From Metellina segmentata (Eukaryota > Arthropoda > Arachnida > Araneae > Tetragnathidae), in assembly GCA_947359465.1 (NCBI GenBank), contig OX375873.1, positions 133,936,899 through 134,000,898 on the forward strand: DNA of 64,000 nucleotides. The letters run 5' to 3'. Below, piece by piece: positions 1,579-63,952 of this stretch. How positions within the stretch are numbered: position 1 is the first letter of the stretch; every line of letters starts with the position of its first letter. The position numbers and the translations under genes are program-made. The notes beneath the pieces are model-generated. The model saw only the letters and a list, made by a program, of their open reading frames with translations, searched no databases and had not been told where the DNA came from.

Positions 1579-2290
1579 CGAGGGAGTATCAATAAGTACA
1601 GCACATAATGTAAAAAAAATAATAATAAAAGCAATTAATGACAATAGGAAACAGCTATGAAAGCATTACCCATTTATTATTTTTCCACATAATTTCCATG
1701 CATGTTGAGGCATTTTTCCCAACGATCGATCAGTTTGAAAATCACGGTCTCATAGAACTCCGTCGGCTGCGAGAAGAGCCACCTTCGCACGGCCCGTTTA
1801 AGTGCCGTCGTCAGAGTCAAACTTCTAACCGTCAAGGAACTTCTTTATGGGTCCAAACAGATGGAAATCGGAGGGTGCCAGGTCCAGGCTGTATGGACGG
1901 TGCTCCAAAACTTCCCAAACGATACCCTGCACTTTTGCACGAACTAGGCGAGACACATGCGGACGAGCGATGTCGTGCAGCAGTCGAATGTGCTGATTTG
2001 TCGCACTGCGCTTTGGACCCATAAAGAAGTTCCTTGACGGTAAGAAGTTTGACGCTGACGACGGCACTCAAATGGGCCGTGCGAAGGTGGCTCTTCTCGC
2101 AGCCGACGGAGTTCTATGAGACCGTGATTTTCAAACTGATCGATCGTTGGGAAAAATGCCTCAACATGCATGGAAATTATGTGGAAAAGTAATAAATGGG
2201 TAATACTTTCATATCTGTTTCCTATTGTCATTAGTTACTTTAAATTATTATTTTTTTACATTATGTGCGTGACTTATTGATACTCCCTCG
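1579..2290. mobile_element. Palindromic mariner-like element (foldback derivative)
   Basis: The two ends are inverted copies beginning CGAGGGAGTATCAATAAGT, each next to TA (1577-1578 and 2291-2292), the mariner target site. The inverted arms are about 270 bp each (about 1579-1852 and 2018-2290), far longer than the roughly 30-bp ends of normal mariners. The arms contain the 3' end of the transposase gene in opposite orientations. The centre (1853-2017) holds part of the transposase catalytic core on the minus strand. The 5' half of an ordinary mariner is absent. Inference: a deletion derivative in which the 3' end was duplicated in mirror image. Confidence 0.85.
1590..2067 (-). pseudogene. 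Mariner transposase 3' fragment
   Basis: Read on the minus strand from 2067, the frame contains LLHDIARPHVSRL followed by WEVLEHRPYSLDLAPSDFHL, the second and third catalytic-Asp blocks of mariner (DD34D) transposases. It continues into a typical C-terminus, with stops. The N-terminal helix-turn-helix region and the first Asp are missing, so the protein cannot be active. The same C-terminal piece is mirrored on the + strand in the right arm. Confidence 0.8.
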
Positions 2291-2444
2291 TAGTTTGTTA
2301 ACTTTTATTTGAAAAAGTAAAAAATAAACTTTCACATTTTCTTTTAGTCTTCTGCTATTCTTAAGATTAAGTTACCAAAAAATCATGCTAAATGAATATT
2401 ATAATTATGGAAAATTGGAAGTTTGAAAATCACAGGTAAAGAAG

Positions 2445-2578
2445 CCGCAGTAGTTAGGGAAGCAAAGTAGACAGGTTGCAAGTTTGAAACTCTATCCAAC
2501 TAAGGATCGTTGCGTGCGTGGAGGCTGGCTTAAAGTTAAATCTGTCGTGTTCTCAAATGTCCTTATGTTTACGTGATG
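2445..2578 (+). repeat. SINE-1 (head A), 5' part, split by another SINE
   Basis: SINE-1 in this window has a tRNA-like head A (GTAGCCCGGTTGGAAGAGTA..., then a box-B-like GAGTTCGAA). Its body contains TTAAATCTGTCGTGGCCTCA, CGTGGTGTGGAAGTTTGG, CGTCATCTGACCGTGG, GGATTGATCCCGGACCGTC and GCGACGTTAATTAACTACC. Here the head and first third of the body are present and break off after the TCCTTATGTTTACGTG segment. The body resumes at about 2893. Confidence 0.7.
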
Positions 2579-2888
2579 AGGATGGTAAGGTAACTTTAAT
2601 TAACGTCGTACTAGAGCAACACAACGTGCTATTGATGACGGTCCGGGATCAATCCCCTAAGGAAAAAATTTGAGGACAACACCACGTAATGTTGAACCAC
2701 GGTAAGATGACGAGGCGACACCGAAACTGGCACCACACTCCCCAAACCTCCACACCAACCCAACGCGAGGACTTTCGACCACAACAGATTTAGGGTGCAC
2801 CAGCTGCCACCAGCCATACGCTTACAAATATCCATGCACTGACCCGGAATCGAACCAGGAACCTTCCGATTCGGAGGTTAACACCTTA
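2579..2888 (-). repeat. SINE-2 (head B) inserted in SINE-1
   Basis: SINE-2 has a different tRNA-like head (B: TAGTGGTTAAGGTGTTAGCC as box A, GATTCGAATCC as box B), a short linker GCATGGATGTTTGTAA, then the same body as SINE-1. The tail is ATTACC repeats. This copy is inverted: the tail lies near 2580-2600 and the head near 2830-2888. It interrupts the + strand SINE-1 at its middle. Confidence 0.8.
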
Positions 2889-2892
2889 ACTG

Positions 2893-3065
2893 ATATGATG
2901 TGAAAGTTTGGAGAGTGTGGTGCCATTTCCGGCGTTGACCTCGCCATCTGACCGTCGTTCAAAATGAAGTGTCGCCCTGTGGTCTTTCCCTTCGGTATTA
3001 ATCCCGGACCGTCTCCAATACCCCATTGTATTGCTCCTGTGCCTTTTTATCAACTACCCACCTAC
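2893..3065 (+). repeat. SINE-1 body, continuation after the nested SINE
   Basis: The text picks up at GTGTGAAAGTTTGGAGAG, exactly where the 2445-2578 piece stopped, and runs to the CAACTACCCACCTACC tail. This shows one element split in two. Confidence 0.75.
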
Positions 3066-3599
3066 CTTTTCTCATAAAAAAAAGGGAAAAGGAAATGAAG
3101 GAATCAACCAACTAAACTCATCAAAAACTGCGGTTAAAATTATGAAACAGTCGAAAATCCATTTCCAGTAATGAACAAAGAACGTCCTGAACTTTCCACT
3201 GCACCCCTAAAAACACTTCCGACACGCATACCTTAGTAACCGACGGATTTTCCCCACAAGGGTCAAAAGGTCTTTCTTTCTCCCAAAACGTAAAAAAAAA
3301 ATTACGCCGCGGTTTGGCTGGTCCTCAAGTCAATCCCTCAAGACGGGAAGAGGAAAGAAGCGAAGTACAAAAATAAAGATTGGCTGTTATTCCAATAGCA
3401 GTTAATAACAGTGTTGTTGGAAATTAACAGTTGGTAATTGACATTGAAAATGTCATCACCAGATGGGAAAAGAGTAACTATTTAAAACCCCAAACTTACT
3501 AGCAATACAATACAAATATACATTACAAAGGATGCTATTTAAATACAAAGTGAAAATTCATGAAATCTGTAAATGACTTGAAATTTATTTGAATAGTTG
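3066..3599. other. AT-rich DNA, nothing recognised
   Basis: No gene or shared repeat is visible apart from short poly-A and poly-T runs. Confidence 0.4.
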
Positions 3600-3775
3600 A
3601 TTTCAATTGACTGCTTGTGAGAACGATTCCTCCCTGGTGTACTTCTCTCTTCTGTGTCAAATTATCCTTGTGTGTGTGTATGTCCTTTAATTTGCGTTGT
3701 CTATCTTGGGTTTGTTGCAGCATGATTAAATATGGCCCCTTGCGCCTTAAAAACCTAATTTACCAACCTCTCAAT
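3600..3775 (+). repeat. SINE-3 (head C family) copy
   Basis: SINE-3 has a head with CTGTGAGTTGTAGGCGGC and AGTTCGATTCCTCCCTGG (box-B-like). Its body reads CTCTTCTGTGTCAGTAAA, GTGTGTATGTCCATTAC, and it ends ATGGCCCTTGCGCCATAAAA followed by CCAAC repeats. This copy begins inside the head (GAACGATTCCTCCCTGG) and ends GCCTTAAAAACCTAATTTACC. Confidence 0.7.
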
Positions 3776-3840
3776 TGAAATCAACCGCTAACATCGATTC
3801 CTGGCAGTTAATAATAACTGTTTAACTTATTTTCTAAACT

Positions 3841-3912
3841 AGGGGGATCCGCCCCCTGCTCGCCAACCCCTAGGGATTGCTACGCAATTTTATTTGGTTT
3901 GCTTCGCGAACC
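3841..3912. repeat. Three consecutive tight hairpins
   Basis: Within 72 bases there are three stem-loops: AGGGGG/CCCCCT with a 5-base loop (3841-3857), ATTGC/GCAAT with loop TAC (3876-3888), and GGTTTGC/GCGAACC with loop TTC (3896-3912). They are GC-rich in an AT-rich setting. This looks like the end of a repetitive element, but I cannot name the family. Confidence 0.5.
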
Positions 3913-4545
3913 AACACTCCTCAGTGTGAGAATCGAGCGAAAACAATCGAGTTTTCAATCCTCCGACATCGAAACTATCTTAATAATTCGCATATTTCTG
4001 ATTGGACTTTCCGGTTATGACGTCATAGCAAGTTTCACCAACGTCGTTTCATGTTTAACTCTGCGATGAACAATTTGTACCTTATTGCAAAATTATACTT
4101 TTCATCGCATCGAATTTAGTTATGAACCAATTTTTAAAATAATTACACAATAAGAAAAAGCGCATTCTAAGCTTTGACGTGGTACTTTCAAATTTTAAAA
4201 CTAAATGTATTAAGCTATCGATAAGTTTTAGTTTTGTATCGGAAATTACGATCTAAAAAATACGAAATTTGTAAGACCAACTTTTTATCGCATCGAATTT
4301 ATTTATTAACCCATTTCAAAAATAATTTTACTGTAAGAAATAAGTAGTACACTCAAAGGTTTCCGGTGATGTCTTCAGATTTAAAAACTAATAGTAATAA
4401 GCTATAGATATGACTGTTTTAACAAAAAATGTAACGAAAAAATTAAAGTCGCACTGTGTAACGTAATACTTAAAAAGTCTTAGTCACGAGTGAGTTTAGC
4501 ATTGTATCTGGAGTGCATGAAAAAAAGTACCATCTGATCATTTCA
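3913..4545. other. AT-rich DNA, possible internal repeat
   Basis: Two related segments (ACTTTTCATCGCATCGAATTTA near 4088 and ACTTTTTATCGCATCGAATTTA near 4279, about 190 bp apart) are followed by similar text, suggesting an old tandem duplication. No gene is seen. Confidence 0.4.
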
Positions 4546-4749
4546 CCCTCCAAGTGGGTACGACAAGATGCTTTGTCCATCAAAGTCTGATCAATTTTGC
4601 TATTTCGTCAATTTTTTGAGGATGACGAGATCAAGGTCTGGTCAAGTTTCTTCCAATGACGAGAGACGACGAGATCTTGATGAACGAGATCTCTCGTTCT
4701 GCAAGTACTAATCAGCCGAGATAACTCATCAAGAAAACCACCAGGAGGG
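4546..4749. mobile_element. piggyBac-like MITE with 43-bp repeat core
   Basis: The element starts CCCTCCAAGTGG and ends CCACCAGGAGGG, followed by TTAA at 4750-4753 (the left flank is mutated to TTCA). Inside are degenerate GACGAGAT...CGTC palindromes joined by ATCAAGATCTGGTCA-like text. The TTAA target and CCC...GGG ends are the marks of piggyBac-type elements. No transposase is present, so it is non-autonomous. It lies about 0.8 kb upstream of the MMP start codon. Confidence 0.65.
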
Positions 4750-4960
4750 TTAACTTTTTATGAACAGATTTTAACGAGCGGAACGGTCGGTAATGGAGTT
4801 GCTCCCCCCCCCTATTTATAAAATTTAAAAGTTTCAAAATTCCTTTTATAAATTGTGAGAAACGCTTGATTTTCATATGCGGAGAATGTACACAATGTTT
4901 AGAAAATTTTCCTTTCCCAAGAAGGGAAAAAAGTTTTTTTAACCCTTTTCCCTTCTTTAA

Positions 4961-5141
4961 ACCTATAAGTGGTTTCGACGAGATATCTCGTCCATCAAGG
5001 TATGATTAGTGTGTCAGAAAGAATGGGATATCTCGTCCATAAAGGTGTGATCAGTTTAGAAAAAACGAAATGTCTCCACCATCAAGGTATGATAAGTTTC
5101 AGAAAGGACCAGATACCTAGTCAGGACAACCAGCAGGAGGG
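4961..5141. mobile_element. piggyBac-like MITE
   Basis: TTAA at 4957-4960 and 5142-5145 flanks a unit that begins ACCTATAAGTGGTTTCGACG and ends AACCAGCAGGAGGG. It has three decayed 43-bp-type repeats with ATATCTCGTCCATAAAGG. It is the second copy directly upstream of the MMP gene. Confidence 0.65.
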
Positions 5142-5284
5142 TTAAAAACCAGCTCCTTCCAAAACTAACTCTCCATACTGTATGCTTCTGTTAACTAAAC
5201 TGTTGAAAAAAAGCAGTCGACAAAAACTGTTGTCGCAAAACAATTTGCCCATCTCCAAAAACACACAAAAGAAGGATAAAAAAA

Positions 5285-5569
5285 AGAGCACAACCCTATG
5301 TTGTTGCGGCGCGCAGAGGAAACCCCTCTCCCCCTCCCCAACCCACCTCTCTAATTCACAACCAATCCACAGACGACTTCTCCTTCCTCCACCCCTCGTC
5401 TCTGGAGACCCACGTCGAGCGCGGCATATCCATCTCACTTCCAAACTCTAACTCCCGCCGCAAGGGCTCGCGTGTCTTTTTTGCCGTTCTTTCCGCCACC
5501 GCTTTCTTGTACAACCCTGCCGCGAGAGAGCGGCGAATGGCGGCCGCCCCTTAGGGCGGCTCCCGGACG
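5285..5569 (+). promoter_or_regulatory. GC-rich leader / probable promoter-5'UTR of the MMP gene
   Basis: The composition changes abruptly to GC- and CpG-rich (for example CGGCGCGCAG, CCCGCCGCAAGGGCTCGCG, GCGAATGGCGGCCGCCCC), directly preceding the first coding exon. No TATA box is evident. The transcription start cannot be located from sequence alone. The small open frames on both strands here have no recognisable domains and look like composition effects. Confidence 0.45.
5537..5554 (+). promoter_or_regulatory. Upstream ORF of 5 codons in the MMP leader
   Basis: ATG GCG GCC GCC CCT TAG ends 15 bases before the main ATG, in a different frame. If it is in the mature leader it could lower initiation at the main start. 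Confidence 0.4.
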
Positions 5570-6740: not shown

Positions 6741-7656
6741 CTACTGTGATCAAAACGTATTCCCGAATGCTGTCGTTAAACACAAAAGGTATAAATTTAT
6801 TGATCAAAATTTATTACATCTCCTTAAAAGTAACTCCTCCGACTTCAATGTACTTCTGCCAACGTTTTTTCCAATCCTCAAAACATGCCTTAAAGTCGTT
6901 TTTGTGAAACCCCTTCAGAGTTCGCATCGAACCTGCTTTTATTGCATCAATGGACTCAAAACGGTGCCCACGAAGATGGAGAGTTTCATCCGTGGAAATG
7001 GGAAAAAGTCACACTGTTTCATATCAGGTGAATATGGAGCTTGTGCAGCCGTATTTGTTGAACACTTTGTAAAATATCACGAATAATAATGACATTGTGA
7101 GAAGACACATTATTGTGATGAAAAAACCCATGAATCATCTCGACACAATTCATGTAGTTTTCGACGAATGAAATGAGAACTTGTAAATAATATCTTTTAT
7201 TGTTAAACGACGATCCCTATTTATCAATTCTATGACCTGATTGACATGTTGATCATTTGTCCAAGTGGATGGTCTTCCAGATCGCGAATCATCTACGACG
7301 GATTCTCTACCTGCTTTAAACTTTTTATACCAATCAAATACTGTTGTTTTTGAGCAACAGTAGGCTGTAAAAGCTTTTTGCAACATTTCAAATGTGTTTG
7401 TAGCAGAAATTCTATTGCGGAAACCAAATTCAATGCATGTTCTTTGCTTAATCACATTCGACATTTTGGAAAATAAACGAAGTGAAAATTCTTCTCTGTT
7501 AAAAACAAATTTATTTTCAGACTATGAAATTAAATGAATCCCTGATTGTTGCCACATGTTTATATGGGTCGTAAAAATATTTGATAAAAGTTTGCAAATG
7601 ATATCTACTATATGCATTTTAAAGGAAGCATTCCGGATACTTTTTGATCACAGTGG
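6741..7656 (-). mobile_element. Internally deleted mariner-like element, copy 1
   Basis: Terminal inverted repeats of about 30 bp (CTACTGTGATCAAAACGTAT... and its complement ending TTTTTGATCACAGTGG) are bounded by TA at 6739-6740 and 7657-7658. The 916-bp length is short of the usual 1.3 kb. Copy 2 at 63005-63952 has the same ends and the same coding sequence, so both belong to one family. Confidence 0.9.
6790..7464 (-). pseudogene. Mariner transposase, internally deleted and broken
   Basis: From ATG at 7464 the frame encodes about 100 residues of the DNA-binding half: RTCIEFGFRNRISATNTFEM, VFDWYKKFKAGRESV, DDSRSGRPSTWT, RRLTIKDI (the HTH typical of mariner transposases). Downstream on the same strand, but in other frames, are FFHHNNVSSH (the second Asp position of DD34D, here Asn) and a C-terminus FEDWKKRWQKYIEVGGVTFK. 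The middle with the first catalytic Asp is deleted. The element cannot encode active enzyme. Confidence 0.85.
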
Positions 7657-7659
7657 TAT

Positions 7660-8820
7660 GTACGGAATTCGAGAGAGACGATCATTTCGTCTTAAAACAA
7701 GTGTTCGTAATGTCACAGATAACCGACTTAGACAGGTGCCACCCACGTCAGAGGTCGAAGTTCATGGATGATTGCAGACAGAAGTGTGCTTTGTACTGAG
7801 ATTTCCAACAAAAATATCTTGTAGTGTTTGTTTAAAAGTATAAATTTTTTAACTCCATCTCTTCTACTCGTAACAACACACTATAAAATTCGGGGGTAAA
7901 GATAACACGCAATTTTTCTTTGGAACTTTTCGGTTATGCGAGCTTGTTTTCATTTTAGAACCTTGTTATGTCGTATAAGTTCGTATCTTTAGCAGTTTAC
8001 AGTTTTCTAGTTTCTGATCGTTTGTATTTTTAATTTCACCTTTTTGTTGGGTATCAGAATTCTGGTAGTTATTCTCATGTTTTTATGTTGCTGCTATATC
8101 CTGGTAATAGTAAAGTTCTTGTGGAAAGGCAAATAAATTCGTTTGGAAAGATTTAATGTAATATTTTTCAATTGGTTAAAACTTTCGAAGACATAAATGC
8201 GAATATTTATAAGTTCCTTTGCATTTTTTTTGTAAACAGAAGGTAAAAAAAGCGTTTTTAAAATTACGGAACATTCTTATTTCACCAAAAAAAATGTCAA
8301 TACCATTACTTCTGCTATTATAATTCTCGTTCACCCAGTAGCTCAACGAAAAGGCTTGCGAACCATGAATAAAAAATTACGAATGGCAAAATTGACCCCT
8401 GTGGTCAATTAACCGACGCTTCCCTAACAGTGACTCACGCTGTCCTGTCAATCTCGTGAACTCATACTGCGGAAGAGCGAAGAGTGAATGGACCTACATA
8501 ACACATCCGGATTTAAAAGATGGAAATGGTGAAGAAGGCGCATACTAGACATTCTTCTATTCTAAAAGAGCATGATATATATTTTTGATGGACTTTCTTC
8601 ACCTGTTGGTGGAGTGATATTTACATGACGCATTTCAAACCGGCGATGTTAAAATTTAAAACTCCTTTTAAAAAATGGGTTAAAAATTGTATTGCTTATT
8701 TGGAAAAAAAATTCTACTGAAAATAATTTGGGTTAAAGACTTTGAAGAAGCAAGAAACATGTTGATTCTAAAAATGTCGCTAAACCTAAAAAAAGATCTT
8801 AGACATACATTCACTCACAG
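7660..8820. other. Intronic DNA, nothing recognised
   Basis: AT-rich; no open frame with a recognisable domain. Confidence 0.4.
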
Positions 8821-13411: not shown

Positions 13412-13623
13412 CCCTCCTGGTGGTTGTCTCGACGAGGCATCTTGTTATTAGCAAAACTGACCAGATCTTGATGGACGAGATATCTTGTAATTTGAAAAAA
13501 ACTGTCCAGATCTTGATCTCTTTATCCAAAAATTGGCAATATCTTGATGAAGAGATATCTCGTCATAGGCGAAAATGGTCAGATCTTGATGGATGATATA
13601 TCACGTCGAAACCACTTGAAGGG
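13412..13623. mobile_element. piggyBac-like MITE, well-bounded copy
   Basis: TTAA sits at 13408-13411 and 13624-13627. The left end is CCCTCCTGGTGGTTGTCTCG, the right end GAAACCACTTGAAGGG. The interior has four 43-bp-type units with AGATCTTGAT and GACGAGATATCTCGT. There is no coding capacity. This is the best-preserved pair of ends in the window. Confidence 0.75.
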
Positions 13624-13904: not shown

Positions 13905-13956
13905 ACTGAGATCAGATCTTGATGAACGATATAACTCGGCGAAACCACTTTGAGGG
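13905..13956. repeat. piggyBac-like MITE, 3' fragment
   Basis: It reads AGATCTTGATGAACGATATA then GAAACCACTTTGAGGG, followed by TTAA at 13957-13960. The left end is lost. Confidence 0.55.
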
Positions 13957-19482: not shown

Positions 19483-19574
19483 AGAACTAGAAAAGTTTTT
19501 AGATAATTAAATCGAATCATTTTACTCAAATCACCGACTGTTCCTTCATCCCATCCTCTCCAAAAATATAATCA

Positions 19575-19659
19575 TTTTACTAAAGACAAGATAATTCGTC
19601 CTTAGTAATATTGATCAGGTTTTGGATGAGATAACTCGTTGAAACACTAGGAGGGTATT
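19575..19659. repeat. piggyBac-like MITE fragment
   Basis: ATAATTCGTCC, ATTGATCAGGTTTTGGATGA and AACACTAGGAGGG are recognisable; the left end and TTAA sites are lost. Confidence 0.4.
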
Positions 19660-25595: not shown

Positions 25596-25755
25596 CCCCC
25601 TTGGTGGTTGTATCGACGAGGTATCTCGTCATTAGAAAAATACTGATCAGATCTTGATAGCCAATAAATCTCATCATTAGAAAAAAGGTCTTAACCTGGT
25701 CTTCATCCAATCATCGACAATACCTTGATGACCAGATATTTCGTCATATTTTACC
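25596..25755. repeat. piggyBac-like MITE, truncated by SINE-3
   Basis: TTAA at 25592-25595, left end CCCCCTTGGTGGTTGTATCG, interior GATCAGATCTTGATAG and CAGATATTTCGTCATA. The right end is replaced by the tandem SINE that starts at about 25757. Confidence 0.6.
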
Positions 25756-36326: not shown

Positions 36327-36868
36327 GCCGACCAACCAGTCTGGTGGTTAAGGTGTTAATTTCTAGATAGGAAGGTTCCTGGCTCGAATCCTGCTCAGGG
36401 CATGGATGTTTGTAAGCGTATGGTGTAGAGGCAGCAGGTGCACCTTAAATCAGTCGCGGTCGAAACTCCTCACGTTGTTTGGTGTGGAAGTTTGGAGAGT
36501 GGGGTGCCAGATTCAGGTGTTGCCTCGTCATCCGACCGTGGTCTGTGGTGGCCGAAACTCATCACGTTGTTTGGTGTGGAAGTTTGGAGAGTGGGGTGCC
36601 AGATTCAGGTGTTGCCTCGTCATCCGACCTTGGTCTGTGGTGGCCGAAACTCCTCACGTTGCTTGGTGTTTGAGTTTGGAGAGTGGGGCGCCAGATTCAG
36701 GTGTTGCCTCGTTATCCGACCGTGGTCTGTGATGGCCGAAACTCCTCACGTTGCTTGGTGTGTGAGTTTGGAGAGTGGGGTGCCATATCAGGTGTTGCCT
36801 CGTCATCTGACCATGGTTTAACGTGGTGTTTTCCTCGGATCTTTCCCTTAAGGGATTGCTCCCGATAT
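36327..36868 (+). repeat. SINE-2 copy with 92-bp internal tandem array
   Basis: Head B (GCCGACCAACCAGTCTGG, TGGTTAAGGTGTTAATTTC, GGCTCGAATCCTG) leads to a body in which a 92-bp segment recurs four times (starts 36481, 36573, 36665, 36757). The segment carries GTGGAAGTTTGGAGAGTGGG, CAGGTGTTGCCTCGTCATC and GGCCGAAACTC. Because 92 is not a multiple of 3, the same peptide pattern appears in all three frames; this is not a protein-coding repeat. Confidence 0.9.
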
Positions 36869-37430: not shown

Positions 37431-40335
37431 CACTAGGGTGGTCACAAGGTATATGGGGGAAAAAAAATTTCCGCCCAATCTTCCATGGCACCCCCCTAAA
37501 ATGTGCCAATAGGCTAGAAACTGTGATTGGCAAAGTTTCAGCTCATCCTGATAATATTAACCCGTGCCTCATTGAGGTTAAAGTTAAGAAAACCAGCGAT
37601 TTTTAGCAAAAAATAGTAGTTTTTACGCTTTAAAATCGAAACTATTCGTCCTAGAAACCTGGTTCTTGTCTAATTTCATAGGAAATTTTACTGACTTGAA
37701 GTTTGATATCATCCACTTTTTTTGCTAAAACTGATAGAATGGTATTTAGCATTTTTCAGGTAAGGTCATAGTGGATATCCTCAAAAGTGAATTTTTATGC
37801 AAAGCCCCTAAAAACATTACAATATTCAATTACATCTGCTTTCCAGATTTTGCTTTTGTATTTTTCATTTTGTACATTAAAAAGGCTTTTGTTAGAGGTA
37901 TTTTTAAAAATAAATCCAACAACATTCAAATTCAAAATGAAGGAATTATGGGTAAAGAAGAGGAAGCAAGGAGTAAAAATTACATCAAATAGTGTTCAAA
38001 TGTATTTTATTAATTATATAATTTAATTATACATCATTATATTATTATTATTTAACTATACAAATTAAGCGGTAATTACAAATTAAGGTGGTACTGTCTT
38101 AGATATTGTAGCTTTTGAAGAGTTCGAAAAAATTTGTCTACGTTCAGATACTACTTGTAAATGGAACTGCTCTTGTTCTTCGTCTTTCGTCAAAGAGGAA
38201 TTAAAGTCTTACATTAATTTTACTCCTATCTCAAAAGCATCATTAACAACCCTTAAACCGTTTACTATTTTTTTAGCTTTTAAATAATGTTGATTTTTAC
38301 ACCATACATCGGGATCGGAATTTAAAAAATCTGTATCGATTTCAAATCTCTTAAAATAATTTAGAATTCAAGCAGAAACAAAATAATTAACTTCTTTGTC
38401 CAATAATTGAACAACTTTTGGGAGATTGAGTTTTGGTTTTACATCCCTATCATCACAATCATCTTCATCATTTTCTACTTCGGACCTTAATTTTTCAACC
38501 TTGCTTGTTTTGACATTTTTTTCCAAAGTATCATCGAAAAATAAAAATGCAACTTGCTCCGAGTTCAGATACTACAGATGGTTTATTATTTTAGACAGGG
38601 CCTTGTCTACAACCTCTTTATCAATTTTCCTGTATCTAACTAAAGATTTTAGTAATTGTAGGTCTAGGTTGGGGGCCAAAGTGGGTTTGTGGGCATTGAA
38701 CCATGCTTTTACATAAATATTGACTGTAAATAAACAAATGTATGCATTACCTTTTCTCTCTAAATCAGTTAACGAAAATTGATCCCTGAAAACATGTATT
38801 TTAAGAGAATAAATGGCAATTGCCATCCATCTAGCGTGATGAATAGCACCAGGTACTCTAAAAGTAATGTGTTTTTGAGGAAGACGCCCTAATTGAATTA
38901 AGCAAAGTTGGATGAATTCTTTATAATCATCAATAGGCTGTCGGTTTTTTAATTGTTCAAAAATAAAACTTGAAATTTGGTCTGGATAGCTTATTTTATT
39001 TCTAATATTTTCATCTTCTATACCTGTTTGTATTTCTTCTTGTCTAGCTTAGACCACCGAGTCTGGAATTTTCGAAAAATATTTGGCTGAGGACCAGTGG
39101 CTGCCCATTTTGCAATTAAAATCGGCTTTGTAAGCAACTTTTAAAACATGGTGGCGACATGCTAAATTCAGAAAGTTTTTCTCTAATAACTGCCCTAGCA
39201 AAACGCAGGTTCCCCTAAGGCGACCAGTATTTACTGCCGATGTATCAAAACACAATGTCTGGATTTTCCCAACTGCCCCACCCCCCACACACACACTGCT
39301 CAACTGCTGATGATACAGCTTTTGCTTGAATTATCCTCGTACTATTTTCAAGGATTTGTACACCTATCAACTGTTCTTCATCGCCACATGTAATCAAAAT
39401 CGCTATCCGCTTCACATTTTCTTCACTCAACAAATCTCGAAGCAATTTCCCATCCCACTGCACAACAGCTCCCTCTAAATCGGAATTTCTAAATCTATTT
39501 TTGATGAGATCAGTAGCGGAGTTGTATGACACTTCTACCTAGAATTAAATTCTGTGGGTCATGACCTAATGCCTGAAAAATGCTAAATAACACTCACAAG
39601 TTGTATCTGAAGTACTTTAACAAGTTGTATCTGAATGTAGGCACATTTTTCAAGACTCTTTAAAAGCTACAATATCTAAGGCATTACCACCTTAATTTGT
39701 AATTACCATCTAATTTGTATTTTTGAATAATAATATTGTAATGATGTATAATTCAACAATATAATTAGTAAATACATTTGAACACTATATGTTGTCATTT
39801 TTACTCCTTGCTTCCTCTTCTTTACCCCTAATTCCTTCATTTTGAATTTGAATGTGTTGTCGGATTTATTTTTGAAAATACCTCTAATAAAAGCCTTTTT
39901 AATGTACAAAATGAAAAATACAAAAGCAAAATCTGGAAAGCAGATGTAATTAAATATCGTAATGTTTTTAGGGGCTTTGCATAAAAATTCACTTTTGAGG
40001 ATATCCACTACGATCTTACCTGAAAGATGCTAAATACCATTCTATCAGTTTTAGCAAAAAAAGTGGATGATATCAAACTTCAAGTCAGTAAAATTTCCTA
40101 TGAAATTAGACAAGAACCAGGTCTCTAGGACGAATAGTTTCGATTTTAAAGCGTAAAAACTACGATTTTTTGCTAAAAATCGTTGTTTTTCTTAACTTTA
40201 ACCTCAATGAGGCACGGGTTAATATTATCAGAATGAGCTAAAACTTTGCCAATCACATTTTCTAGCCCATTGGAAACTTTTAGGGGGGTGCCCCGGTAGA
40301 AATTCGAAAATTGATTTTTTGTGACCACCCTAGTG
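37431..40335 (-). mobile_element. CACTA-like element with ~740-bp inverted arms
   Basis: The ends are CACTAGGGTGGTCAC and its complement, flanked by TAC on both sides (37428-37430, 40336-40338). A CACTA start with a 3-bp duplication is the pattern of CACTA/EnSpm elements. The shared motif could also be read as TGTACCA duplicated around CTAGGG ends. Inverted arms run about 37431-38170 and 39600-40335 with few differences. The middle carries a broken minus-strand transposase-like gene whose last codons lie in the left arm. Superfamily placement is tentative. Confidence 0.65.
38083..39532 (-). pseudogene. Broken transposase-like gene inside the CACTA-like element
   Basis: Read downward from 39532: SYNSATDLIKNRFRNSDLEG, VQWDGKLL, then LCFDTSAVNTGRLRGTCVLL, LACRHHVLKV, then PGAIHHARWMAIAIYSLKI, LTDLERKGNAYICLFTVNIY, LAPNLDLQLLKSLVRYRKI. 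It ends at TAA 38083-38085. CFDT...NTG followed by CRHH recalls the second catalytic Asp and the C/D(2)H signature of RNase H-like transposases; many insect genomes encode similar uncharacterised proteins. Lesions: a frameshift in the G-run near 39285, and in-frame stops near 39050, 38573, 38367 and 38213. The N-terminus is missing. Confidence 0.6.
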
Positions 40336-51078: not shown

Positions 51079-51299
51079 ATACAGATCTTCTCAGCAAACC
51101 ATAAATTATAAAAAAAAATATGTTTTTTGTTTTGTCGTTAAGTGTGCCAATGTGACAAGCATGAATGTATATTTTCAAGCATCCCCTGTCGAGATGGGAT
51201 GATTACGGAAACATATAGTTTGGGTTATTGCATATGTAGTCACTTGAATGTAAATCCTCGTGTTGTGTCTGAAAGTGTCTCTTTTTTGTCCGTCCGCAG

Positions 51300-51586
51300 C
51301 ATCAAGTACTGGCCTTACAGCATGTCGAAGCACCTGGCCCGAGCCGAGTTGATGAGGGCCTTCAAGGCGTGGAGCGACGTGTCCCAGCTCAACTTCAACG
51401 AGGTGAATTCCCTGAGCGCGGACATCGTGGTGTCGTTCGAGCGGGGCAAGCACGGGGACGGTTACGCGTTCGACGGCAAGGGGGTGGTCCTGGCCCATGC
51501 GTTCTTCCCCGGGGAAGGCATCGGGGGCGACGCACACTTCGACGCTGAAGAACCCTGGGTGGCCCGGGAGTCGCCTGGAATTGACG
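51300..51586 (+). CDS. Mmp2: Matrix metalloproteinase, exon 3 (first half of catalytic domain)
   Basis: Residues 143-238. After IKYWPYSMSKHLARAELMRA and FKAWSDVSQLNF comes HGDGYAFDG, LAHAFFPGEGIGGDAHFD and EEPW. By family alignment His194, Asp196, His209 and His222 bind the structural zinc, and Asp201, Asp224 and Glu227 bind structural calcium; all are present. PGEGxGGDAHFD is the form seen in insect Mmp2 and membrane-type MMPs. The acceptor TTTTTTGTCCGTCCGCAG and donor GACG|GTAAGC give phases 2 and 1. The next exon, which must carry the HExxHxxGxxH zinc helix and Met-turn, does not appear before 64000. Without it no activity can be claimed from this window, but nothing suggests a broken gene. 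Confidence 0.93.
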
Positions 51587-51648
51587 GTAAGCGAACCTTT
51601 TCTATTGACACACGACATTTTACTTAAAAAAAGGGTATTTTATGTTAA

Positions 51649-52080
51649 CCCTACAAGTGGTTTCGGCGTGATATCTCGTCCATCAAGATCTTACCTACAC
51701 TCGAGGTCCTCCCCAGCACTTATTGCAAATCTGATATACTCCAAGACGGGGTGACAAGGAGGGGTGTGTACTTCCCTTTAAGAAGAAAGAAGAAGAATCA
51801 AGATCTTACTAATTTTGCTAATCATAAGATAACTATGCAGTCAAAGTCCTTCATAGTGGCTGGATCGGCATTAACGAAACTGACCAGATCTTGATGGAAG
51901 AGACATCACGTCGTTAGTGAAAAAAAAAATGACCAGATCAGGACCTTGCCGATTTCTTACCACGACAAATCTTGATCTCGTTGTCATATGAAATCGGCAA
52001 TGTTCTTATGACGAGATAGTGTCTCACCATCAGCAAAATTGGTCAAATCTCAATAAGCGAGCTGTCGCGTCGAATCCACT
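51649..52080. mobile_element. piggyBac-like MITE with a retroposon inside
   Basis: TTAA at 51645-51648 then CCCTACAAGTGGTTTCGGCG. After several units it ends GAATCCACTCGGAGGG, followed by TTAA at 52087-52090 (right end at about 52086). A 102-bp insertion at 51695-51796 interrupts the first unit. Both ends begin with the AAGTGGTTTCG-type sequence, so this is an inverted-end copy rather than left/right-different as elsewhere. Confidence 0.55.
51695..51796 (+). mobile_element. Short retroposon with 13-bp target duplication
   Basis: ATCAAGATCTTAC occurs at 51682-51694 and 51797-51809, flanking 102 bp that ends in an A-rich AAGAAGAAAGAAGAAGA tail. The duplication length and A-rich 3' end suggest target-primed reverse transcription. 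The inserted text matches nothing else in the window. Confidence 0.6.
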
Positions 52081-52086
52081 CGGAGG

Positions 52087-52402
52087 GTTAAGATTTTGTC
52101 GATATTTTATGATGGCGAGATCGTGAACTGGTCAGTTTTGCCAATGACGAGATATCTCGTCCATCAATATTTCGTTGGTTTTGCTAATGACGAGATATCT
52201 CGTCCATCAAGATCTGGTTGGTTTTGCCTATGACGAGATATCTCGTCCATGCAGATCTGGTCAGTTTTTCTTTTGACGAGGTATAACGTCCGTCAAGATC
52301 TGGTCAGTTTTGCTAATGACGAGATATCTCGTCCATCAAGATCTGGTTGGTTTTGCTAATGACAAGTTATTCTCCATCGAGACAACCAGCAGGAGGGTGA
52401 AA
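52087..52402 (+). repeat. 43-bp minisatellite of piggyBac-like MITE origin
   Basis: Six units start at 52146, 52189, 52232, 52275, 52318 and 52361, an exact 43-bp period. Each is GACGAGATATCTCGTC (16-bp perfect palindrome), then CATCAAGATCTGGT and YRGTTTTGCTAAT, with few changes. The array ends CGAGACAACCAGCAGGAGGG at about 52397, the usual MITE terminus, followed by TGAA instead of TTAA. Confidence 0.85.
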
Positions 52403-58477: not shown

Positions 58478-58572
58478 CCTCCTGGTGGTTTGTCTCGATG
58501 TGTTAACTTGTTACCAAAATTAACCAAATCTTGAATGACGAAAGATCTTCTTAAAACCACTTGGGGGGGGGT
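58478..58572. mobile_element. piggyBac-like MITE, minimal copy
   Basis: TTAA at 58474-58477 and 58573-58576. Left end CCTCCTGGTGGTTTGTCTCG, right end AAAACCACTTGGGGGGGGG. At 95 bp only about one internal unit remains. Confidence 0.6.
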
Positions 58573-58579
58573 TTAAATC

Positions 58580-59288
58580 CAATGAAATTACCGTCATTTT
58601 GACCCCACAATTTTCCAGATTACATGATATTTTTTGTAATGTCGAACTCTATTGCAACTTTGTATGCATACGAGTATACGTATTTGGCACATTCTGAATA
58701 GATATCTACCATTATGCCTAAAAAATATAAGAGTCTTATACTTTTAATAGATACTTTAACCGTATATCACGATACTTCAACTTTAAAGCTCTGTTATAAG
58801 ATAAATATTTTCGATTTGGAAAATAGTTGTTTACCGAACACAATATGGTTGACAGCCTAGAGGAAGTACAAAATTAGGGTAAGTTAGGACAACTTTTTAT
58901 GTGCCCAGGATTTTGTGACCATAACTAGTAGTAACGGGATCCTCAGACTACTTTCGACTGCCGGGAGGAAACGAATGCGCATTATCTGATTGGTCCGCGA
59001 GACATAGTAGTAGACTTTTGCGATTTCACCATTTTATCGCCTCTGTATAGAAATACACATTCACACATTATACCTCCATAAATTGTTAAATCGCCAAACG
59101 AGGCGATGAAATGGCAAATCCGAAAACCAATTCAGTTTTTCATATAGCAGTCACGTGACTACCACACGACATGTCGGTCTCACTATTTCAGTAACAATGC
59201 TCTGTCTACTTACATTTCATATCTATAGAAACATGAATTTAATGCCAATGATGGAATCTTTCCACATTCCAATAAACTCCTAAACTGT
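58580..59288. other. Intronic DNA, nothing recognised
   Basis: No gene or shared repeat seen. Confidence 0.4.
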
Positions 59289-59293
59289 TTATC

Positions 59294-59475
59294 GTTGGGT
59301 TGGTGTGGAAGTTTGGAGAGTGGGGTGCCAGCTCAGGTGTTGCTTCGTCATCTGACCGTGGTTCAAAATTACGAGGTGTTGTCCTCGAATCTTTCCCTTA
59401 AGGGACTGATCCCGGACCGTCGTCAATAGCCCGTTGTGTTGCTCTAGTACGACGTTAACTAAAATTACCATTACC
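59294..59475 (+). repeat. SINE-2 body, 5'-truncated
   Basis: Starts GTTGGGTTGGTGTGGAAGTT and ends CGACGTTAACTAAAATTACC with ATTACC tail. It is nearly identical to 60935-61100, so recently active. Confidence 0.85.
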
Positions 59476-59479
59476 TAAA

Positions 59480-59990
59480 CTGTTTATAAGACTGAATTGA
59501 TATTCGAGTTAGCTCACGGTTTACAAGTCAATGTCCGGTATGCTATGTGAAGGAGATACTTTTTCAGTGTTTAGAATAGAGATAGCACACATAACTGAGG
59601 AAGACAACAAAAGGATGACAAGGGAAGACCTGTCTCATCTATCTCAGACATTCGCGGCTATTCATTCTCGGCTTCTCCATCGTCTATTCCACAACTTTCT
59701 AAAAATATATCCCTCTCCGTAATTTTGACACAGGGGATGCTTCAGCAAGCAATTTAGTATTGTTTCTAGGTTCTGACATATAACTGAAATATCCCCTATT
59801 TTTCATTTATAAATAACACCTCCCTTGGCTCACGAAGTTTCTGTTTGCCTAGAAAACGTGTTTCACTGTGAGTAGATAAACCGAGCGTTCCATGGGTAGA
59901 TAAAGGCACGTCATTTCTTTGATACGTCCATAATTAGTTAAACCAAACTATGAAAATGTATAATGTGGAGCAATGACTGTTTAAGGTATT
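59480..59990. other. Intronic DNA, nothing recognised
   Basis: No gene or shared repeat seen. Confidence 0.4.
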
Positions 59991-59992
59991 TG

Positions 59993-60290
59993 GTAGGTAT
60001 TTTAGTTATCATCTCACTGGAACAACATGATGGGCTATTGGCGATTGTCCGGGTAAGATCAGAAGAAAACATCACATACTTTTGAACCACATTAAAATGA
60101 CGAGGTCACACCTGAGCTGGAACCCCACTCTCCAAACTTAAACACCACACCAGCGTGCGAACAATTGAGGCCACGACAGATTTAACCTGCACCAGACGCC
60201 ATTGTACACGACGGTCTTTAGTTTGATTCCAACTTGCATCCCTTTGGTTGCTATTCCGTTACTCTTACAATGTGGCTACCGCGGCCCCAA
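59993..60290 (-). repeat. SINE-1 full copy
   Basis: The complement runs from GGGGCCGCGGTAGCCACATT (head A) to the tail near 60000. The GATTGATC...CCCTTCGGG block is partly deleted. Confidence 0.8.
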
Positions 60291-60600
60291 ATCAAATTAT
60301 GAAAATGTTTAATTTAGAGGAATGACTGTTTAAAACTTCAGAGTGTACGAATCACCATGAAACAATGATTTAACAAAGAATAACCTTGAAATGGATGTCT
60401 GGAATCGAATGAAGCTAATACAGAGTTCAAATTTCAAATAAGTCCACAAGAAAATCATTTTAAATTCAGATCATTCGGGAACCGGTCATAGCAGTATTTA
60501 GAGTATTTTCAGACAAAGAATCAACTTCAGTTTGCAACAAATCAGATAAATAATAGAAAATATTGTTGAAAATAACAAATAAAAATTATTATACCCCAAG
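60291..60600. other. Intronic DNA, nothing recognised
   Basis: No gene or shared repeat seen. Confidence 0.4.
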
Positions 60601-60607
60601 TTTAAAA

Positions 60608-60770
60608 TGACAAAGCAGCTCAGGTGTTGCTTCATCATCTGACCGTGGGTCGAAATTACGTGGTGTTGTCCTTAGATATTTCCCTTAGGGGATTGATCCC
60701 GGACCGTCGTTGATAGCCCGTTAGATTGCTCTAGTACGACGTAAATTTAAATTACCTTACCTTACCTTAA
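60608..60770 (+). repeat. SINE-2 body, 5'-truncated
   Basis: CAGCTCAGGTGTTGCTTCAT through to CTCTAGTACGACGTAAATTT, with tail TTACCTTACCTTA. Confidence 0.85.
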
Positions 60771-60776
60771 ATGACA

Positions 60777-61256
60777 GCCGACCAACCGGTATAGTGGTTA
60801 AGGTGTTAGCCTCTACATCGGAAGGTTCCTGATTCGAATCCGGGTCCGGGCATGGATGTTTGTAAACGTATGGTGTAGAGGCGGCTGGTGCACCTTAAAT
60901 CTGTCGTGGCCGAAAGTCCTCACGTGGGTTGGCGTGGAAGTTTTGGAGAGTGGGGTGCCAGCTCAGGTGTTGCTTCGTCATCTGACCGTGGTTCAAAATT
61001 ACGAGGTGTCGTCCTCGGATCTTTCCCTTAAGGGACTGATCCCGGACCGTCGTCAATAGCCCGTTGTGTTGCTCTAGTACGACGTTAACTAAAATTACCA
61101 ATTACCAATTACCCGGACCGTCTTCAATAGCCCGTTGTGTTGCTCTAGTACGACGTTAACTAAAATTACCAATTACCAATTACCCGGACCGTCTTCAATA
61201 GCCCGTTGTGTTGCTCTAGTACGACGTTAACTAAAATTACCAATTACCTACCTTAA
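60777..61256 (+). repeat. SINE-2 full copy with tripled 3' end
   Basis: The cleanest SINE-2: head B with box A TAGTGGTTAAGGTGTTAGCC and box B TGATTCGAATCCGGG, linker and full body. Its last 71 bp (CCCGGACCGTC... to ...ATTACCAATTA) recur at 61041, 61112 and 61183. Confidence 0.9.
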
Positions 61257-61296
61257 ATGACAAAGCAAGTTTATGCGATTCAGACCAGAATGATGA

Positions 61297-61386
61297 GGTA
61301 GGTAGTTAATTATCGTTGGCACTGGAGCTATACAAAGGGTTATCGGTGACGGTCCGGGATCAATCCCGAAGGCAAAAATCCGTGGT
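61297..61386 (-). repeat. SINE-1 3' end
   Basis: GTAGGTAGTTAATTATCGTT and GACGGTCCGGGATCAATCCC are the complement of the SINE-1 end. Confidence 0.75.
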
Positions 61387-61566
61387 AATGGTAATTTTAG
61401 TTAACGTCGTACTAGAGCAACAAAACGGGCTATTGACGACGGTCCGGGATCAGTCCCTTAAGGGAAAGATCCGAGGACAACACCTCGTAATTTGAACCAC
61501 GGTCAGATGACGAAGCAACACCTGAGCTGGCACCCCACTCTCCAAACTTCCACGCCAACCCAACTA
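61387..61566 (-). repeat. SINE-2 body, 5'-truncated
   Basis: Begins with the tail GGTAATGGTAATTTTAGTTAA and ends CTTCCACGCCAACCCAAC. It lies back to back with the SINE-1 end. Confidence 0.85.
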
Positions 61567-61726
61567 AAAATCCGTGAACAACGCCTTTGAAAATCACCCC
61601 CAAAATAAAGAACTTGCAGTACAAATGTCGCCTCTCAAGTTTGTGATTTTCTGAGTGAGCCCTAATTATATCTCGTCCGCTGTGGCGGATTGCATCATGA
61701 CTCACTCGCGTATTTACTGGACCGAG

Positions 61727-62087
61727 GTATAAAACCCGGTTGGAAAATTGACGGTAATGGTAATGGTAATTTTAGTTAACGTCGTACTAGAGCAACACAA
61801 CGGGCTATTGACGACTGTCCGGAATCATGGAAAATTGACGGATTAGCAACCGGTAGGTAGCTAGTTGAAATCCAACCAAAGACCCTCATGTACAAAGGGG
61901 ATGGTGTATATTAAATCTTTCGTGACCTCAAATCTCTTCATATTGACATGATGTGGAAGTTTTGAGAGGGGGATGCCGGCTTGGGTCGTCATCTGGTTCA
62001 AAATTACGTTGTGCCGTGCTCGGACCTTTTCCTTTGGGATTGATCCCAGACCGTAGTCAATAGTCCGTGGTGTTTCTCCAATGCGTA
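61727..62087 (+). repeat. SINE-1 full copy, interrupted at 61754-61827
   Basis: Head A begins AAACCCGGTTGGAAAATTGACG, is interrupted, and resumes TGGAAAATTGACGGATTAGC to TGTTTCTCCAATGCG. The upstream AGGTATAA may include the start of the head. Confidence 0.8.
61754..61827 (-). mobile_element. SINE-2 3' end inserted with 13-bp target duplication
   Basis: A 74-bp inverted SINE-2 tail (GTAATGGTAATGGTAATTTT ... GACTGTCCGGAATCA) lies between two copies of TGGAAAATTGACG (61741-61753, 61828-61840). This fixes the insertion boundaries exactly and shows the ATTACC repeat is the true 3' terminus. Confidence 0.9.
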
Positions 62088-62089
62088 TT

Positions 62090-63004
62090 TATTAGAAAAA
62101 TGCTCCAAGATTTCAGATTTTCGAGGTCTTTCCCCAGGAAACAATGGGAACTATTTTTTTCATTTCAGCCCCTGTCTCCAAACATCTCTGCGTGTTGGAG
62201 TTCCTTGATGTGTACAGGGTTAAAAAGTAAACAAAACAGTCTTTTAGAACCCAAACAAAAAAAGCACACGCGTATCTCTCTCCACGGTACACCAGTCCCC
62301 ATGGGGATCCGCGTCCACACATTCACCTTGCGACGCTGTCATGCACGCTCACCACGCGCGTTCCTCCACGCAGGGCCTCAGACACTACGCGTCCCCCTTC
62401 AATTTTCCCCGTCTCCAAACGAATATGAGAGTAAAAGCAATAGCAAAAAGGAGAAGGGAAAAAATGTAAAGGAAACACACAACCGCAGACAAGATAAACG
62501 CTGTTTATAAAAAGCTCCTTGGCTGTCGCAAAAGCTGAAGCGATGACGGCAGTAGCTAGACACTGAACAGGCGATTTCGTCTTGTTCAAGAGAAAACGCA
62601 GAGCATGTGTTCGCTCGGATGAGGAGGCAGTAAGACTGGGGGGTCGGAGTTCTGTTTCCGAAGAGGGTGCATGACAGGTTCACGCATTGTATCTTGGTGT
62701 TTATTGATTTTGCGTGGAGTAAGTCGAAGCTCATTTTTGTTAGATGTGGCTTCGACGATTTATTTGGTTTATTTTTCTATAAAATATAATGAACTGCTGT
62801 GGATATCAAAGACGAGAATTGTTTTTAACTCATGGTAATGTGACAAAAGTTTAATCCACTCAGCTCCAGTCCTCAATGATGGGCTCTTAATGGGTTCAAT
62901 GATGGGCTCTTCATGAAATCAAATATACATTTCACAAGTGCATAATGTTTCTTGCACAAATGTACACTTTTCGCTTTCTTTGTACCCACTATAGACGTGA
63001 CATA
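62090..63004. other. Intronic DNA, partly GC-richer
   Basis: 62270-62420 is GC-richer, with overlapping frames on both strands (up to 147 codons) that show no domain. Considered noncoding. Confidence 0.4.
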
Positions 63005-63952
63005 CTACTGTGATAATAAAGTATCCGGAATGCTTCTTTTAAATTACGTATATAGTAGATAGATGTCGTCTGAAAAATTTTATCAAATATTTTTATGACT
63101 TATATAAGCATGTGTGGCAAGAATCAGGGATTTATTTAATTTTATCGTTTGAAAATAAATTTGTTTTTACTAAGGGAAAAATTTTCACTCCGTTGATTTT
63201 CCAAAATGTCGAATTGAGCAAAAGAACATGCATTAAATTTTGTTTCCGCAATAGAATTTCTGCTACAAACACATTTGAAATGTTGCAAAAAGCTTTTCCA
63301 GACGACTTTTTAACAAAAACGACAGTATTTGATTGGTATGAAAAGTTTAAAGAAGATAAAGAATCCGTCGTAGATGATTCGCGATCTGGTGGACTATCTA
63401 CTTAGACTAATGATCGACATGTCAATCAGGTAAGAGAATTGGTGCTTAATAATCGTCGTTTAACAATAAGAGATATTGTTGAACAAGTTCCTATATCATT
63501 TGGTTCCTGTCAAGCAATTTTGAAAGATCATTTAAGTTAGCGATGCGTCGCTTCTCGAGCTGTTCCAAAAACTTTGATTTTGTTCCAAAAGCAACAACGT
63601 GTTGTAGTGTCCCGAGAGCTGCTTTCTTCGTAATTTTGAATGCTTTCTCCGTAATTTTGCTGCGTATTCACCTGACATGATACCTTGTGACTATTTCTTA
63701 TTTCCACTGGTGAAACTAACTGTTCGTTGTCACCTTTTTGAGTACATTGATGCAATAACAGAAAATTCGATACGAACCCTGAAGGAGTTTCACAAAAACT
63801 TTAAAGCATGATTTGAGGACTGGAATAAAACGACGGCAGAAAAGCATTAAAGTCGGATGAGATTACTTTGAAGGAGATGTAATAAGTTTTTACCAATAAA
63901 TTGATTCCTTTTGTTTTATGACAGCATTTCAGGTACTTTTTTATCACTGTAG
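63005..63952 (+). mobile_element. Internally deleted mariner-like element, copy 2
   Basis: Ends CTACTGTGATAATAAAGTAT and its complement (ACTTTTTTATCACTGTAG), with TA at 63003-63004 and 63953-63954. Length 948 bp. Same family as 6741-7656, opposite orientation. Confidence 0.9.
63206..63875 (+). pseudogene. Mariner transposase, internally deleted and broken
   Basis: The ATG at 63206 is out of frame with the rest, because of a net 4-base loss just after it relative to copy 1. The HTH half follows (RTCIKFCFRNRISATNTFEM, VFDWYEKFKEDKESVVDDSR), a stop after GGLST, then RRLTIRDIVEQ and later YSPDMIPCDYFLFP (third catalytic Asp block). The C-terminus is FEDWNKTTAEKH. The region with the first two catalytic Asp residues is largely deleted. 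Confidence 0.85.

Follow-up and report, generated by a model that had tools for sequence, protein, structure and literature searches.

An abundant piggyBac-type MITE of the spider Metellina segmentata with an internally repeated unit resembling a transposase-binding module

Introduction

MITEs with internal tandem repeats, and the growth of such repeats into satellites, are documented for two Xenopus systems, Xmix/Xstir and miDNA4, in the passages of the sources cited here (PMC12628747, PMC9659126). Xmix/Xstir is a T2-type Kolobok MITE that shares with the element described below the TTAA target, a tandemly amplified internal segment, and composites of MITE and array. In contrast, its tips read AGGRR, its superfamily is Kolobok, and the cited passages describe no link between the repeat and transposase binding (PMC6004289, PMC12628747). 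miDNA4 resembles our element in being a MITE whose satellite motif occurs either singly or in arrays that differ in copy number, but it is a Tc1/mariner MITE and its motif is thought to have been captured (PMC9659126, PMC12628747). Parallels exist also among Drosophila foldback elements: Galileo carries tandem repeats inside its ends with additional transposase-binding sites, and in Tetris the TIR-220 grows into satellite arrays and extra binding sites are discussed, whereas Tetris differs from our element by its foldback structure, long TIRs and 220-bp repeats (cited passages of PMC4079207). Tandem-repeat MITEs are known, but usually not the reason for repeating a given interior stretch. A clam reportedly provides a further case of a tandem-repeat MITE and satellite.

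The ends of piggyBac transposons are described at the level of binding sites. The left end (LE) of T. ni piggyBac is contacted by the transposase core at bp 7-16 and, at the palindrome of bp 17-33, by a dimer of C-terminal zinc-finger domains (CRD); an added CRD site on LE approximately doubles integration (PMC7351741). Like the MITE end, it has a palindrome near bp 25 behind its tip motif, and in both elements the two ends are asymmetric. In piggyBat, the ends of which are also asymmetric, 44-bp binding modules are repeated on one end: the transposase binds LE 1-44, 45-88 and 89-132 separately, LE44 takes one dimer and LE88 two, and a third inner module lowers transposition about 6-fold (PMC11707139). 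Unlike the MITE, both transposons are autonomous with one to three modules (PMC11707139, PMC7351741). As far as the cited passages go, their palindromes are unrelated in sequence to each other, and the MITE dyad was not matched to either of them. CMITE of Acropora corals is like our element in its TTAA target, CC[C/T]T tips, tiny size, a GACGA-N6-TCGTC motif within a conserved interior, tandem arrays of whole elements, and piggyBac transposons within its own genome. It differs in its tip sequences, its homogeneous size of ~100 bp and its estimated ~1,600 copies, and the cited passages describe no internal unit array (PMC2872659).

Here we analyse a MITE family in a 64-kb stretch of the M. segmentata genome (the whole stretch is called the window). 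Judged against the systems above, what seems new is a piggyBac-type MITE whose body consists largely of amplified copies of an apparent binding module. Our literature search found no published report of such an element, and a report elsewhere is possible; the motif strings of the element were absent from the searched literature, and the coral palindrome string matched PMC2872659 alone. Because the repeat unit is close to a piggyBac module in size and dyad position, array growth driven by binding sites is directly testable here. The family also bears on the question of module number, given that T. ni piggyBac gains activity from an added site while piggyBat is repressed by a third module: with 1 to ~35 modules in each of perhaps tens of thousands of copies, the genome constitutes a natural titration of site number.

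Results and Discussion

Copies in the window

The window contained 13 insertions of a short, non-coding, TTAA-edged element, one of them nested inside another (Table 1). The original prediction had listed ten loci with sizes from 95 to 437 bp; all ten were confirmed, and the size range was right. The total of 13 was reached by adding two fragments, with left ends at 13956 and 19655, and by resolving 51649-52400 into an outer element and a second one nested in it. Several traits of a MITE were present: a length of 95-437 bp (the interrupted outer copy aside), inverted CCCTCC tips and a high copy number. No ORF of 120 aa was found inside the element copies of the window.

Table 1. Copies and fragments of the MITE in the window.
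Feature	Position	Strand	Flanks and remarks
MITE copy E4546, LE to RE	4546..4749	+	Right TTAA intact, left flank TTCA
MITE copy E4961	4961..5141	+	TTAA on both sides; 4 dyads; spacers alike inside the copy
MITE copy E13412	13412..13623	-	TTAA on both sides; cleanest core, LE-P1-P2-S2-P3-P4-RE
LE fragment	13910..13956	-	With TTAA; absent from the original prediction
MITE copy E15494	15494..15648	-	Degraded tips; RE flank AATA; first dyad behind LE lost
Degraded copy	19533..19655	-	LE at 19655; absent from the original prediction
MITE copy	25596..25748	-	RE with TTAA; LE lost; a 153-bp tandem array starts alongside
MITE copy E26390	26390..26588	-	RE with TTAA; LE side TTTAA after a small change
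MITE copy E44623	44623..44875	+	TTAA on both sides; 5 dyads; first three left tip bases missing
MITE copy E47473	47473..47909	+	TTAA on both sides; ~9 dyads; 45-bp units in a 90-bp higher-order repeat
Outer copy of nested pair	51649..52397	+	LE with TTAA; RE flank TTCA; array 52128-52382
Inner nested copy	51845..52087	-	Within the ~60-bp spacer S2 of the outer copy; site T(T/C)AA
Shortest copy, 95 bp	58478..58572	-	RE with TTAA; 2 degenerate dyads

The nested pair was initially open to a second reading, namely an element with two left ends at 51649-52087. This was rejected, as the structure is a reversed inner copy nested in the outer one; the LE of the inner copy is clear and its right end (RE) is so degraded that it is recognisable by alignment alone, and the low boundary given in Table 1 was inferred in this way.

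Two further observations concern the surroundings of this pair. At 51682-51809 the outer copy carries, between the two copies of a 13-bp direct repeat (ATCAAGATCTTAC), an insertion of ~102 bp that has an AAG-rich tail and resembles a truncated retroelement. A coding piece of a matrixin (MMP) at 51142-51627 adjoins the pair, which probably lies within an intron of a matrixin gene.

Element architecture

The repeat unit is ~43 bp long and centred on the dyad GACGAGATATCTCGTC; the usual step is 43 bp, with 45 bp in part of E47473. The left end reads CCCTCCAAGTGGTTTC, and the right end, read inwards, CCCTCCTGGTGGTTGTCTC. Both tips have CCCTCCNNGTGGTT in common and differ at the two N positions and at a few bases before the first dyad. 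The predicted ends CCCTCC(TG/AA)GTGGTT were real as tips, but TG and AA are not variants of one end: because each of the nine complete window copies carries one LE and one RE, they represent two distinct kinds of end.

In the common orientation, the core is ordered TTAA-LE-P1-~27 bp-P2-~60 bp-P3-~27 bp-P4-RE-TTAA, where P1 to P4 are mostly degenerate versions of the dyad, and to this core extra units are added. These lie between P3 and P4 in E44623, in E47473 and in the outer copy of the nested pair (52128-52382). A body made of 43-bp units, as the original prediction had it, was borne out with respect to the units, but the body is not a uniform array, and most units are degenerate. The 47 parsed dyads (up to 6 mismatches allowed; candidates starting with TTATAG and two other strings were excluded by hand) kept 72-91% of the consensus per position. 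At the same limit, a dyad was found directly behind the LE tip in 8/9 complete window copies and directly behind the RE tip in 8/9, the single-unit copy included. The LE dyad spans bp 17-32 with its axis at bp 24.5; the RE dyad starts at bp 20 and has its axis at bp 27.5.

Abundance

Within the window the dyad matched at 14 places with up to 2 mismatches, 6 of them exact, against a mean of 0.00 in shuffled sequence (0/100 shuffles reached 14), and the end motif matched at 13 places with up to 1 mismatch (shuffle mean 0.07). Across the genome (1.665 Gb, 173 contigs) the dyad occurred at 77,020 places with up to 1 mismatch, compared to 14 for the reversed control; since it is self-complementary, the same count is obtained on each strand. 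The exact 22-mer of LE was present at 1,084 places (531 + 553 on the two strands) and at none in the control (0 + 0).

The window is rich in the family. In profile searches the MITE covered 4.2% of window bases, compared to 0.8% in 20 spread 10-kb samples from contigs C1-C10, which were picked by hand at round coordinates and are not a random draw. These samples yielded 7 islands in 4/20 stretches, with 16/20 lacking any. Scaling from the 7 islands in 200 kb of hand-picked samples gives a rough copy number of ~58,000 genome-wide. The GC content was 37% in the window and 30-40% in the samples.

Sequence decay of CpG sites through methylation was considered and rejected, the CpG observed/expected ratio of the window being 0.95 (no depletion).

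The element was also sought outside the spider. One exact match to the 16-bp dyad in viral contigs (L001) came without the 43-bp unit and was taken as chance. Exact-match scans of the viral contigs detected no 29-bp stretch of the unit, no 18-mer composed of TTAA and the RE tip, and no 21-mer of the unit; the 21-mer had no exact match in prokaryote contigs, and no phage matched a 761-bp region.

Target site and paralogous empty site

Ends lying off TTAA in most genomic copies would speak against insertion at this target. Exact TTAA preceded the exact 22-mer LE at 638/1,084 places genome-wide (325 + 313; 59%), while TTAA makes up 1.1% of window positions, a result that favours the original prediction. 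As the family is old, LE copies with a mutated TTAA are expected.

Ends were further located by end sequence alone, at limits of 6 mismatches of 22 (LE) and 7 of 25 (RE). Eighteen ends were identified in the window, of which 13 had exact TTAA outside and 15 at least 3/4 of its bases. At the next 4-mer outward, the corresponding counts were 1 and 2. Loci from elsewhere in this genome (L009 and L015 were omitted for their overlap with L008 and L014) gave 21 ends; 9 of them had exact TTAA and 15 at least 3/4 bases, compared to 0 and 1 in the control 4-mer. Reversed sequence gave 0 chance ends at these limits for the window and 2 for the other loci. Looser limits of 8 (LE) and 9 (RE) mismatches were kept out of the counts because they gave 17 chance matches in reversed sequence.

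The nested insertion provides a paralogous empty site, which shows a duplication of 4 bp and is a check of the kind that the original prediction had proposed. When the outer flanks were rejoined at a single TCAA/TTAA, the resulting sequence could be aligned across the junction to E13412, E44623 and E47473, interrupted by nothing more than small gaps. The 4-bp copies at the insertion read TCAA and TTAA, and the counterpart in E13412 and E44623 reads TCAA; consequently, either the outer copy had come to read TTAA there by one change, or the insertion used TCAA, which is not the canonical target.

Superfamily and the search for a transposase

A TTAA target together with CC[C/T]T tips is the hallmark of piggyBac elements in the cited passages of PMC2872659, and the consensus tips of our element, CCCT, agree with this motif. 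The target, the tips and the paralogous empty site support the assignment as a piggyBac-type MITE, in keeping with the original prediction. A Kolobok MITE of the T2 type would likewise account for the TTAA target and for internal tandem repeats, and the Kolobok MITE Xmix did grow Xstir repeats, but Kolobok tips read RR, and AGGRR in T2 MITEs (cited passages of PMC6004289). The RR (AG) terminal motif is absent from our element, the tips of which read CCCT, and we consider a Kolobok origin highly improbable.

The genome is well supplied with piggyBac transposases. A first look gave 3,832 candidates; 116 of these were scored (PF13843), all of them above the Pfam cut-off and many with open frames of 550-640 aa. 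A full-length piggyBac element sharing the MITE ends, as the original prediction led one to expect, was not found among the transposases checked. None of 21 scored transposases (C1, C2, and C3 to 110.9 Mb) was situated within 180 kb of an exact LE among the matches listed, in a comparison that used exact LE matches, beyond C2:56.6 Mb only those with TTAA, and would miss mutated ends. Five upstream flanks of transposases were examined as well. A tip was recognisable in L041 alone, and it differed from the MITE tip; the flanks of L038, L039, L040 and L042 had no recognisable tip, and L038 and L039 represent one family. Given the age of the family, its partner may no longer be alive, may have acquired mutations in its ends, or may be one of the candidates left unscored.

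The 43-bp unit as a predicted transposase-binding module

The piggyBac element at L041 (bp 347 onward, G000:C2:105939294), from the spider's own genome, begins with TTAA and CC, and behind this tip a 20-bp dyad (GTGGCCGATATTTCGGCCAC) occupies bp 15-34. The axis of this dyad is at bp 24.5 with 9/10 pairs, which is the same axis as in the LE dyad of the MITE. An 18-bp core of the dyad recurs 45 bp inwards with 17/18 bases identical (counted from the letters); the second copy by itself falls below 8/10 pairs, and L041 is known here from one end. In the coral CMITE, a 60-mer contains GACGA-N6-TCGTC, with half-sites and spacing as in the MITE dyad. The motif arose in 5/200,000 shuffles of this 60-mer, and in 29 with spacings of 4-8, in a post hoc test with mononucleotide shuffles. 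Beyond the motif, no alignment of the ~60-75-bp internal region of CMITE to the MITE was apparent by eye.

Since the geometry of T. ni piggyBac, L041 and piggyBat agrees with that of the MITE, as does the coral motif, we read the 43-bp unit as one predicted piggyBac transposase-binding module, the likeliest of the readings considered. The original suggestion that the dyad could be a binding site for the transposase is to this extent strengthened by geometry in other piggyBac elements, but binding itself is inferred by analogy. By our own arithmetic 43 bp is approximately four helical turns, and all modules would then face one side of the helix.

An alternative is that the same piggyBac-type MITE carries its dyad repeats as neutral passengers, or as the site of a host factor, and that they have grown by slippage or unequal exchange. 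The pattern of substitution is compatible with it. Dyad symmetry was not maintained, with 8 pairs changed on both sides compared to 12.7 expected if the two sides were independent. Dyad and spacer were about equally conserved (0.869 and 0.862) when 11 units with a length of exactly 43 bp were compared. With its symmetry not preserved and its conservation on a par with that of the spacer, the dyad gives no sign of selection after insertion. Slippage would also yield likeness within copies and the higher-order repeats described below. Two points speak against a purely neutral or host-factor origin. The terminal dyads occupy the position at which piggyBac transposases bind, and the unit differs in length by no more than 1-2 bp from both the piggyBat module and the repeat spacing in L041. 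On balance we find this alternative unlikely.

Growth of the arrays

Units were more alike within copies (identity 0.759) than between copies (0.693; permutation p = 0.0004), in a comparison of 23 units whose spacers measured 22-31 bp; the units came from 9 copies, with E4546 and the two fragments left out. The likeness stemmed from E4961, E47473 and the outer copy, and was almost absent from E13412 and E44623. Two copies contained higher-order repeats, of 90 bp and 129 bp. Likeness within copies and higher-order repeats together make it appear that units were duplicated inside individual copies.

Larger arrays were encountered elsewhere in the genome. Locus L037 holds an apparent single element with ~35 dyads (30 + 5), in which LE adjoins TTAA and RE, judged by eye, is degraded; by reading of the sequence, its extra units separate LE from the long spacer. 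At G000:C1:98577266-98578037, five exact LEs follow one another in the same direction at steps of 184, 190, 184 and 192 bp, 3/5 of them with exact TTAA. Judging by this spacing, they are a probable tandem array of whole elements, comparable to those of the coral MITEs.

The array of L037 is itself split by a 3.5-kb element (~2020-5510), the long inverted ends of which start with TAGGGTGG and TAGAGTGG; an 8-bp repeat, TTGACCAT, was seen by eye.

The direction of these events might in principle be reversed, the MITE having captured a pre-existing 43-bp tandem repeat with the terminal dyads as part of the capture. Capture is the explanation given for Xenopus miDNA4 (cited passages of PMC12628747), and among 13 distinct dyad-seeded loci, 8 had an end at the limits used and 5 showed dyad clusters lacking one (L002, L003, L005, L008 and L014). 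On visual inspection, degraded tips are present in L002, L005 and L008, and L003 and L014 show none that are clear. Yet these clusters have 3-5 dyads each, like degraded MITEs, and no long array free of transposon ends appeared in the stretches read, the longest one (~35 units, L037) keeping its LE with TTAA. The regular presence of a dyad directly behind both tips, even in the single-unit copy, also argues against capture, which we regard as improbable.

A route from transposon to satellite DNA, as originally proposed, is made plausible by the likeness within copies, the ~35-unit copy and the row of five LEs, but a long array free of ends was not among the stretches read. The MITE repeat accordingly suggests a plausible way in which a transposon can turn into satellite DNA.

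Proposed course of module amplification

The explanation that we favour, and believe to be fairly probable, is that of an old, abundant piggyBac-type MITE moved in trans, with the 43-bp unit as a putative binding module that was amplified within copies. A piggyBac transposase supplied in trans would cut and join the MITE at TTAA. In each 43-bp unit, the dyad would be gripped by a dimer of C-terminal zinc-finger domains and the adjoining motif by the transposase core. Extra modules would be gained by local duplication inside single copies, and the element would spread carrying them. Such gains might be favoured as more sites improve synapsis of the ends, or else arrays may slip and neutral variants may be lucky. 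If module number grew without check, copies would come to hold tens of units and would in this way approach satellite DNA.

A more specific proposal, which we advance tentatively as a possibility, is that the array is a natural multimer of the binding module, selected for synapsis or for soaking up transposase, and later a satellite seed. If true, the transposon's own enzyme-docking code would be the satellite monomer. Many modules may or may not confer an advantage, because a third module lowers piggyBat activity ~6-fold.

Other repeats in the window

Several unrelated features were recorded in the window. At 37431-40335, a degraded ORF (38572-39048) for an uncharacterised protein that is seen in many arthropods and a leech lies between 735-bp inverted repeats, which are 90% alike. 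A hAT-like element is suggested here by the tips (CTAGGGTGGTCAC) together with a 7-bp flank repeat. Another family of dispersed repeats recurs very often in the window (at 59288-61827 and numerous further positions) and forms local tandem arrays of 71-bp (61041-61248) and 92-bp (36461-36817) units. Two degraded mariner copies with a Mos1-type HTH lie at 7150-7661 and 63000-63500 and are 85% alike over 505 bp. A 282-bp inverted repeat, 95% alike, is located at 1577-2292.
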